From: Acidobacteriota bacterium | Lineage (GTDB): Bacteria > Acidobacteriota > Holophagae > Holophagales > Holophagaceae | NCBI GenBank assembly: GCA_016192145.1 | Contig: JACPUT010000006.1 | Location: forward strand, 310,001 to 374,000 | Length of the DNA: 64,000 bases | Direction of reading: 5' to 3' | In this document: piece after piece, positions 3,798-46,256 of the stretch | Layout of the letters: every line of letters starts with the position of its first letter | Numbering within the stretch: position 1 is the first letter of the stretch | Notes under the pieces: generated by a model | What the model saw: the letters and a program-made list of their open reading frames with translations, nothing else | The model's database searches: none | Told to the model about the DNA's origin: nothing | Made by a program: the position numbers and the translations under genes

Positions 3798-4094
3798 TCA
3801 CTCGACGACGGTGTAGATCTCCCGCTGCCCCGACAGGATGGTGGGCCGGAAGCCCGCGTAGGCCTCCTGCCACTGGGAATCCGCGAAGACCTTGGCGAGG
3901 CCGCCCTCGAACACGGCGAGGGAGGGGAAGTCCGTTTCGATGACGAGGGTGTAGTAGGGGCCCGTCAGATCCGTCATCACGCGCCCCAGGGGCGCCCCCA
4001 GCCGGGCGTTGACGGTCATCATGGCCTGGACCAGATTCCTGGCCTCCTTCATGGACTCGGGCCGGAGGTGGAACACTTCGCGCACGACGATCAT
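3798..4094 (-). CDS. NIPSNAP / dimeric alpha-beta barrel-like small protein
   Basis: A 98-residue protein beginning MIVVREVFHLRPESMKEA. The pattern of a short beta strand, a helix with KEARNLVQAMM, then YYTLVIETDFPSLAVFEGGL suits a ferredoxin-like dimeric alpha-beta barrel of the NIPSNAP or stress-responsive barrel type. Such proteins are often small cytoplasmic monooxygenase-like or binding proteins, and no substrate can be read from the sequence. The start was fixed at 4094 because GGAGG sits about 5 nt upstream of that ATG; the frame stays open 15 codons further but without a ribosome site. No partner gene is evident. Confidence 0.7.
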   Translation of the reverse strand: MIVVREVFHLRPESMKEARNLVQAMMTVNARLGAPLGRVMTDLTGPYYTLVIETDFPSLAVFEGGLAKVFADSQWQEAYAGFRPTILSGQREIYTVVE

Positions 4095-45063: not shown

Positions 45064-45119
45064 GGGCCCGAGATTACGCCGGGGCCGGTGGGTCGTGACA
45101 GCCGGTGAGAACTGAATAC

Positions 45120-45205
45120 CAGTGATAAACGGTGATGAACAGTGATGGGGGCTGGCATGCCTGCTTTATCCCCGTTCATCACTGTTCATCACCGGTTATT
45201 TTCAT
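45120..45205. repeat. Palindromic word-repeat element, GTGATGAAC words
   Basis: The left arm (CAGTGATAAACGGTGATGAACAGTGATG, from 45120) is mirrored by CATCACTGTTCATCACCGGTTATT (right arm, to about 45205). The loop includes GGCATGCC. It lies directly upstream of the GNAT gene start side, in the 457-bp gap 45064-45520. Confidence 0.85.
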
Positions 45206-45520
45206 TTTTCACGGGCTCCAATGCAGGCCGGTTAGCCTCTCGGATGCTTGAAATTGAAGGCCACCAATTTGGGGACCTTCTTTCCCCGTGGGCAGCGTAT
45301 GGGGTTTTAAGGGCGCGTTGGCGAGGGATGTGTGTGTTGGCCACCCCTGGCCAGGTTCTCCAATTTTTTATAGCCGTCGCAACAACGGTATCACTTGGTA
45401 CATCGATAAGAGTATTATTTAAATCCTTTTATTTAAGAATTTAGAAAAAATAGATATCATTAGTATCAAAATCGCGTTGACGAGTGCTACTATTTGATTA
45501 TGCTGGTACGCAGGAGAGGG
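45206..45520. other. Strongly AT-rich segment, start of low-GC island
   Basis: From about 45360 the sequence is AT-rich (TTATTTAAATCC, TTTTATTTAAGAATTTAG, AATAGATATCATTAG), in sharp contrast to the rest of the window. No gene with coding character is visible; the frame from 45244 to 45444 has no ribosome site and I do not accept it. TTGACG at 45477-45482 could be a -35 element for the small gene at 45521 but no convincing -10 follows. Confidence 0.5.
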
Positions 45521-45889
45521 ATGATGACACCAGAACAGCTTGCGGCGTACGAACGTGCCCTCCGGAAAAAATGGGAGGCTGAGCAAGAGATTGAGCGCCT
45601 TGGCGCTTCGATCCTAGGCTCTGCTAATCCTGCTGTGCCTTTGCCCAGTGCGCAGGGAATTAGTAACGCTGCGGCCAATCTTCCGCTTCCCCGCAGGGTT
45701 GAGCTGTTTATGAAAGCCGCACGTCGAGCTACAGCTAGCCAAATCATTGAGCATATTGGCGAGGGGCCAACGAAAGCTACTATTCGGACCGTTATCAATC
45801 GACTTATCCACAGGGGCATTCTCCAGAATGCTACGGATCCTGACGGCGAGACGATTCCGGGCCAGTACAAGTATGTTGGAGGTGCGTGA
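45521..45889 (+). CDS. Small winged-helix-like protein in low-GC island
   Basis: A 122-residue protein, MMTPEQLAAYERALRKKWEAEQEIERLGASILG, with a short N-terminal coiled-coil-like helix. A C-terminal winged helix follows (RRVELFMKAARRATASQIIEHIGEGPTKATIRTVINRLIHRGILQN, then IPGQYKYVGGA). GGAG sits about 5 nt before the tandem ATGATG. Codons are markedly less GC-rich than in neighbouring genes, which suggests recent acquisition. It could be a regulator of a mobile element or an orphan DNA-binding protein. No close family is recognised. Confidence 0.7.
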   Translation: MMTPEQLAAYERALRKKWEAEQEIERLGASILGSANPAVPLPSAQGISNAAANLPLPRRVELFMKAARRATASQIIEHIGEGPTKATIRTVINRLIHRGILQNATDPDGETIPGQYKYVGGA

Positions 45890-45905
45890 TGAGAATACGC
45901 TTAGT

Positions 45906-45998
45906 CCCGCTATTTCCCGAGGGTGTATCGGGTAGCGGGTCAGCCGTGATGAACGGCTAGTCAAAGACCCAGGGGTGCCGGTAAGCATTTCCCCTGGG
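45906..45998 (+). other. Array of three hairpins downstream of small winged-helix gene
   Basis: Hairpin 1: CCCGCTA (45906-45912) with TAGCGGG (45933-45939) plus CCCGA (45916-45920) with TCGGG (45928-45932), a 12-bp stem with a TTT bulge. Hairpin 2: AGCCGT (45942-45947) with ACGGCT (45953-45958). Hairpin 3: CCCAGGGG (45968-45975) with CCCCTGGG (45991-45998), flanked by AAAGA and CGTTT, which could act as a terminator. They start 16 bp after the gene's stop and lead into the tRNA-like element. Confidence 0.6.
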
Positions 45999-46029
45999 CG
46001 TTTGGCGAGGTTGCCCTCCCCCTTGCGGG

Positions 46030-46119
46030 GCCCCCATAACGAAAGTGGTACACGTCTTGGTCTTGGAAACCATTGATCCTGCGCGAACAGGATTGGGGGT
46101 TCGATTCCCCCTGGGGGCA
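46030..46119 (+). tRNA. tRNA-like element with long variable arm, anticodon reads UGG
   Basis: The acceptor stem GCCCCCA (46030-46036) pairs with TGGGGGC (46112-46118), and A46119 would be the discriminator. CCA is not encoded (CTC follows). A 3-bp D stem (ACG/CGT), an anticodon stem TTGGT/ACCAT with one mismatch and loop CTTGGAA (anticodon 46064-46066), a 6-bp variable stem ATCCTG/CAGGAT, and a T arm GGGGG-TTCGATT-CCCCC complete it. A long variable arm is a Ser/Leu/Sec-type trait, whereas UGG would read proline codons. It may be a functional unusual tRNA or a relic in the island. Confidence 0.55.
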
Positions 46120-46256
46120 CTCTCATTGTAAGTCCAAACCCATAGAACTCAAGGGGTTTGACATCGTTTACTCGGAATCTAGGGCAGCTTGTCTGCGCCC
46201 AATTGGTGTGCAATACCTCGACCGCTTGCCCTCGGCCTTTTTGATAGCGACGTTAA

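Follow-up and report, generated by a model that had tools for sequence, protein, structure and literature searches.

We find that a class II tRNA gene with the proline anticodon UGG, carried by a 64,000-nucleotide stretch of an Acidobacteriota bacterium genome (the window), is probably a remnant of a decayed transposon of the IS1595 family. In intact elements of this kind, the tRNA is coupled to CCA codons in the transposase gene beside it, and we consider it likely that such tRNAs control transposition by missense decoding.

The gene is recognized both by ARAGORN, which calls it tRNA-Pro(TGG) at 46030–46120, and by the Rfam model RF00005 (48.3 bits, a below-average score; E = 2.9 × 10−7), in agreement with the class II tRNA with a UGG anticodon that a sequence-only reading had described. 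The arm lengths given in that reading hold: the acceptor stem (GCCCCCA/TGGGGGC) pairs at 7 of 7 positions and the T stem (GGGGG/CCCCC) at 5 of 5, the D stem (ACG/CGT) has 3 bp, and the 21-nucleotide variable region contains a 6-bp stem (ATCCTG/CAGGAT). To this we add a U27·U43 mismatch in the anticodon stem, which leaves 4 of 5 bp paired. The anticodon occupies positions 46064–46066 within the loop CTTGGAA, and tRNA positions 37 and 73 are both A. The RNA is more stable than dinucleotide shuffles (minimum free energy (MFE) z = −2.6); the D and anticodon arms are absent from the ViennaRNA MFE structure, so that support for the cloverleaf comes from the tRNA models and from its relatives. Disrupted folding in relatives, which had been named as grounds for abandoning the tRNA, is not what we found: among 17 relatives, pairing is kept in 97.9% of stem cells, double changes occur at 17 of the 20 stem pairs, and none of 500 shuffles did equally well. 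The 3′ CCA is not encoded (CTC stands there). In this the gene agrees with about half of its relatives but differs from the majority of the other tRNAs in the genome, which encode the CCA. The host has a normal class I tRNA-Pro(UGG) (C14:1189–1265, with C1-G72, G15-C48 and G37) and further tRNA-Pro genes, and the window tRNA is therefore not needed to read CCA.

Known identity elements point to leucine. In Escherichia coli, leucine identity depends on A73, A15-U48, G18G19 and A20a, the anticodon is not a determinant for LeuRS, and C2-G71 counteracts SerRS (PMC9976931). When its features were compared with those of the other tRNAs of the genome, the window tRNA was found to have A73, A15-U48, A14, G18G19, A20a and C2-G71, like host tRNA-Leu; A73 and A15-U48 are common to it and all four host leucine tRNAs, and it shares its entire acceptor stem with host tRNA-Leu(UAA). 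Sequence identity is 61% to this tRNA and 42–50% to the host serine tRNAs, which have G73 and G15-C48. Bacterial proline identity uses G72 and G15-C48 (PMC9976931), both present in host tRNA-Pro together with C1, and G73 is the discriminator relevant to SerRS (PMC7609411, PMC9976931); none of the serine and proline core determinants that we tested occurs in the window tRNA. It departs from bacterial tRNA-Pro in G1-C72, A15-U48, A37 and the 21-nucleotide variable region, and from tRNA-Ser and the allo-tRNAs in A73, A15-U48 and a 7/5 acceptor branch; allo-tRNAs are defined by an 8/4 or 9/3 branch (PMC7609411). It also lacks the leucine anticodon (A35), having UGG. As the anticodon is not a LeuRS determinant, UGG bars the name tRNA-Leu by decoding and not by leucylation. 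By these rules, the tRNA is predicted to be charged with leucine and should read CCA, and the earlier suggestion of a missense-type class II tRNA with a proline anticodon is borne out to that extent. If so, annotation pipelines label such genes tRNA-Pro, although their aminoacylation identity differs.

We scanned genome contigs and viral contigs for an NGG anticodon combined with the D-loop spacing of leucine tRNAs and a long variable region, and tabulated about 34 class II tRNAs of leucine type, almost all of which have a proline anticodon. They come from many phyla (Pseudomonadota, Chloroflexota, Verrucomicrobiota, Gemmatimonadota, Eisenbacteria and, at locus L178, another genome of the Acidobacteriota phylum) and from viral contigs. 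Although position 34 was not fixed, UGG was the anticodon in 21 of 29 cases from the first two scans. Positions 15, 48 and 73 lie outside the search pattern, and A15-U48 occurs in 33 of 34 of these tRNAs and A73 in 32 of 34; the acceptor stems differ widely in sequence and keep their pairing. Among about 54 well-formed matches in viral contigs, 31 are class II tRNA-Asn(GUU) with a leucine-type D loop and G73 (for example, L226, L231, L241 and L263), and other viral class II tRNAs read lysine, stop, glycine or alanine codons. Class II scaffolds with other anticodons thus exist in viral contigs, and any argument that relies solely on the variable arm loses force. A serine-type tRNA(UGG) as a common alternative was rejected, as it had no match in the viral collection and was found only at L181.

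IS1595-family transposons with passengers have a transposase with a PF12760 zinc ribbon and PF12762, terminal inverted repeats (TIRs), and cargo between transposase and repeat. Such a transposase (PF12762 and PF12760) is the recurrent gene near the family tRNAs, present at 9 of 15 well-formed genome-contig loci and at several viral loci. In the intact elements L059, L063, L064, L067, L069, L073 and L097, it points with its 3′ end towards the tRNA, and 107–142 bp separate the stop codon from the tRNA 5′ end. In 7 loci (L059, L064, L069, L073, L075, L088 and L181), the transposase and the tRNA both lie between TIRs of the form (C/G)GGAAnTATnnACTTGACAAACC, which identifies the tRNA as cargo. The TIRs match perfectly (26/26) in L181 (1389–3316), an element with a serine-type UGG tRNA (G73, G15-C48) and a coil/winged-helix gene. 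A reverse search that started from the transposase side, covered 110 loci and used no anticodon criterion again gave class II tRNAs with proline anticodons in nearly all cases. One exception, L105, has a leucine-type class II tRNA with the serine anticodon GGA (3800–3883, minus strand) beside an IS1595 transposase, possibly a further codon pairing (UCC/UCU). IS1595 matches on plasmids, at about 43% identity, had no class II tRNA nearby. The TIR-bounded element L075 (1300–2751) also has a gene whose product, judged by eye, is similar to AlbA_2/Schlafen-like proteins; eukaryotic members of that family cut class II tRNAs. Small basic proteins adjoin the tRNA at L070 (4155–4476) and L138 (705–939) (..PDPDQLKIEGDWEEAVRKAL.. 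/ ..PEPERVKIDEDWEKAVERAL..), and both have CCA at an aligned proline.

In the window, the interval that separates the tRNA from the end of topA encodes, on the minus strand, VAIKKAEGKRSRYCTPIGR. This sequence is characteristic of the C terminus of linked transposases (L057, for example, has LAIKKAEGKRLTYREP). This stub comprises the last 27 codons of a transposase (28 with the stop codon, TAA at 46168–46170). Its tblastn matches are short (65% identity over 17 amino acids to L097 and 69% over 16 to L057); a C-terminal profile run against the six-frame translation of the window found it at E = 2.2 × 10−5, with the next best hit at 1.4. The stub is antisense to the tRNA and its stop codon lies 138 bp from the tRNA 5′ end, inside the range of the intact elements. 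Its signature proline is encoded by CCA (46204–46206), at alignment column 462, one of the columns where elements with a UGG tRNA use this codon; the other such columns are lost. A second relic, L074, has the same form and also has CCA. The gene architecture upstream, together with the antisense stub, therefore suggests that the element is a decayed tRNA-carrying transposon, and we regard the window copy as probably a relic (Table 1). The tRNA and the small gene remain intact, but the rest of the transposase gene is missing and the stub runs into the end of topA; a deletion of the transposase probably extended to topA and left an element that is no longer mobile in this genome. A TIR weight-matrix scan found no TIR near the element, and no intact IS1595 transposase (PF12762) occurs anywhere in the host genome.

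Table 1 Features of the tRNA-carrying element in the window, with the evidence for each
Feature	Position	Strand	Evidence
Class II tRNA gene, leucine-type core	46030..46119	+	ARAGORN, RF00005, identity-feature table, covariation in relatives
Small protein gene	45521..45889	+	140 bp upstream of tRNA, same strand; PF03965, AF2
IS1595-family transposase C-terminal stub (VAIKKAEGKRSRYCTPIGRRQAALDSE)	46168..46251	-	tblastn, C-terminal profile, strand and distance
CCA codon of the stub	46204..46206	-	Alignment column 462, codon read-out
Probable acquired relic, approximate extent	45200..46256	.	Low GC, GC3, absence from close relatives

The low-GC island noted earlier around the tRNA is confirmed, with 45–57% GC over 45.2–46.2 kb compared with 68% for the whole window. 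GC3 of the small gene is 0.51, compared with 0.84–0.95 in its neighbours, and close relatives have no homologue of the tRNA or of the small gene, so the relic was probably acquired within this lineage. Phage or plasmid origin of the 1.05-kb region was rejected, as no match was found among 50,697 phage and 72,556 plasmid records. The idea of a decayed phage tRNA therefore survives in one part, the relic of a mobile element, which is an IS1595-type transposon instead of a phage. A REP-like palindromic repeat of the GGTGATGAACAGTGATG type, with about 75 partial matches in the genome, lies at the upstream edge of the island (45115–45210).

The small gene upstream of the tRNA has its longest ATG start at 45500 and a Shine–Dalgarno-like AGGAG before 45521. 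Its product matches PF03965 (24.8 bits; cut-off 22.6), and an AF2 model (mean pLDDT 70) places a helix at residues 10–37 followed by elements in winged-helix order (H-H-H-E-E); the best PDB folds are of MarR/MecI type and are weak matches. Many loci encode, beside the tRNA, a small protein with a coiled coil at its N terminus and a winged helix at its C terminus, and L178 shares the gene order of the window, with the small gene upstream of the tRNA. The agreement is in architecture alone: for sequence homology of the window protein to its counterparts in other elements, hhalign gave a probability of 0.4%. A profile of six small proteins found one clear non-seed match among 6,132 open reading frames, in L145 (E = 6 × 10−7), and a later covariance search located a class II tRNA 28 bp downstream of it. 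The best match to the small protein in a relative, L221, was discarded as an unrelated MarR-type gene. No consistent CCA pattern was found in the small winged-helix genes; that of the window has CCA at one site, GEG[P]TKAT, where helix-turn-helix motifs are usually aliphatic.

To relate the tRNA to its transposase, we compared codon use in 16 intact tRNA-linked transposases (median identity 47%) with that in 97 unlinked ones. CCA, the codon read by UGG, makes up 31% of proline codons in linked and 11% in unlinked transposases; other NNA codons are alike. It is concentrated at four alignment columns, 19 (8/8), 179 (6/6), 183 (11/11) and 462 (11/12), which together give 36 of 37, and is absent from the other six recurrent proline columns of the linked transposases. 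These four are the most codon-homogeneous of 95 fourfold-degenerate columns (the best non-proline column reaches 6/7), and the observed clustering was reached in none of 20,000 within-gene shuffles of proline codons (permutation P < 5 × 10−5). The 97 unlinked transposases show no such pattern. At L073, a linked element whose AGG tRNA reads CCU, columns 183 and 462 have CCT; the anticodon–codon covariation rests on this one AGG element. Two loci classed as unlinked, L114 and L163, stood out by their CCA codons, and each then turned out to have a UGG tRNA that had escaped ARAGORN and whose variable arm is very long. Among 35 newly collected transposases, only L369 has a UGG tRNA at its locus, and its column 183 is CCA. 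There are exceptions: no tRNA was found at L115, L104 or L179, which have CCA at a key column, column 462 is CCT in L052 and CCG in L163, and the pattern is absent from L145, which has an AGG tRNA with C33. The alignment spans one transposase lineage and the events are thus not fully independent. CCA is kept at particular positions, which establishes statistically that the tRNA is functionally coupled to the decoding of the transposase mRNA in intact elements.

Which residue these codons specify is less direct. The simple proposition that CCA means leucine in these elements gained no support from a Codetta-style likelihood applied to the transposase CCA columns (summed scores: proline +26.8, leucine −36.4; ambiguous per column), so leucine is suggested by the tRNA and by the local context of one column only. 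That column is 462, where unlinked transposases with a preceding D/E have leucine in 22 of 33 cases and proline in 1 of 33.

We propose that these elements comprise a coiled-coil/winged-helix gene, the tRNA and the transposase in opposite orientation, and that the tRNA, charged with leucine, would compete with host tRNA-Pro(UGG) at the CCA codons of the transposase. Transposase quality would then depend on tRNA dose, and programmed missense reading, leucine or proline at CCA, would most likely be what controls transposition. Control could run in either direction. Leucine may be required (gating), as the residues at column 462 suggest; or proline may be the working residue, which leucine spoils (damping), for which the proline often encoded at column 183 in close unlinked relatives (CCG/CCT) and the likelihood that disfavours leucine would speak. 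The serine-type tRNA of L181 would fit damping better. Whether these elements as a class amount to sense-codon-recoding transposons, in which a tRNA charged with leucine (once with serine) and matched codons (CCA with UGG, CCU with AGG) enable or spoil the transposase according to tRNA dose, we put at even chances. If they do, missense decoding would provide a translational sensor of copy number or host entry, of which the window holds a relic. The window tRNA may now be silent or a weak source of leucine-for-proline errors at rare CCA codons; CCA makes up 8 of 215 proline codons in seven neighbouring genes, so harm would be limited if the tRNA is expressed.

Among other explanations, we consider it unlikely that the gene encodes a true proline tRNA with a class II scaffold, recognized by ProRS through G35, G36 and A73, and that the CCA columns are real prolines. 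A73, G35, G36 and U34 are indeed present, the four CCA columns are proline-like in context and often proline (CCG/CCT) in unlinked relatives, and the discriminator of the phage class II tRNA-Asn (G73) fits its anticodon. Set against this, the determinants G72 and G15-C48 (PMC9976931) are absent, with G1-C72 in 31 of 34 family tRNAs and A15-U48 in 33 of 34, and such a tRNA would leave unexplained both the avoidance of CCA at other proline columns and the serine-type backbone with G73 in L181.

It is also rather unlikely that the transposon was merely the origin of a tRNA that the host has retained, expressed and leucylated, for useful low-level leucine-for-proline mistranslation at CCA (CCN) across the proteome. 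Despite the loss of the transposase, the stems are intact and the leucine determinants are kept, the small winged-helix gene still has an open frame, and the burden would be low at so rare a codon; but the pattern of the window tRNA was matched in only 1 of 396 genomes of the phylum and in none of the close relatives, and the mismatch at U27·U43 and the below-average score also speak against it.

Improbable, in our estimate, is descent within one IS1595 lineage as the source of the shared CCA positions, with the tRNA as a passive passenger or debris. Linked elements are closer to each other than to many unlinked ones, and the unlinked close relatives L104, L115 and L179 also have CCA at 183/462. 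At 47% median identity, however, other fourfold columns have lost their common codon, the synonymous bases flanking the CCA columns vary freely, the AGG element has CCT, and CCA codons predicted tRNAs that had been missed. Very improbable is the serine-charged missense tRNA or allo-tRNA suggested in the sequence-only reading, for which the long variable arm and the true serine-type UGG tRNA of the related element L181 speak, but against which stand A73 and A15-U48 (as in host tRNA-Leu, and not the G73 and G15-C48 of host serine tRNAs), C2-G71, the leucine-type D loop, the greater identity to tRNA-Leu(UAA) and a 7/5 acceptor branch where allo-tRNAs by definition have 8/4 or 9/3.

A missense tRNA that acts on the transposase, the reading we prefer, has partial parallels in known systems. 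Nematode nev-tRNAs, encoded by nuclear genes, are class II, leucylated tRNAs with glycine or isoleucine anticodons (CCC or UAU), for which no mistranslation was detected in vivo (PMC4300185). They resemble the window tRNA in combining a leucine-type class II body and a non-leucine anticodon, with charging expected from a LeuRS that ignores the anticodon, but they are not transposon-borne, and no neighbouring gene has codons matched to them. Allo-tRNAs (Mukai et al. 2017; reviewed in PMC7609411) are bacterial class II tRNAs with non-cognate anticodons, also known from Acidobacteria; theirs is a serine identity, whereas leucine is predicted for the window tRNA. In Streptomyces, tRNA-ProX has a proline backbone with an alanine, asparagine or threonine anticodon and a dedicated synthetase, ProRSx (PMC10365949), and the resulting low-level mistranslation is proposed to help the cell. 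Anticodon and identity disagree there too, but the window tRNA is the converse, with a leucine backbone, a proline anticodon, no synthetase and a transposon as its carrier. Other passenger-bearing IS1595 elements differ from those with tRNAs, in which the passenger is matched to codons of the transposase. Some phages recode stop codons with suppressor tRNAs of their own. There, likewise, a mobile element supplies a tRNA for codons of its own genes, but phages recode stop codons, whereas the IS1595 elements would recode a sense (proline) codon at a few fixed sites.

Among the open-access papers that we searched (ISfinder, TnCentral and subscription papers being outside the search), none reports a tRNA carried as IS1595 cargo or a sense-codon-recoding transposon; if confirmed, this would be, to our knowledge, the first sense-codon recoding by a transposon. 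Natural bacterial missense tRNAs known to us are few and their purpose is unclear. As the tRNAs described here have visible partner codons in their own transposon, what a missense tRNA is for can be tested directly. Elsewhere in the host genome (G000:C7:677811-685209, locus L033), about 30 densely packed tRNA genes cover most amino acids, and among them are a class II tRNA-Asn(GUU) with G73 and a second tRNA-Pro(UGG); the group looks like a mobile or phage-type tRNA array that duplicates the host set.
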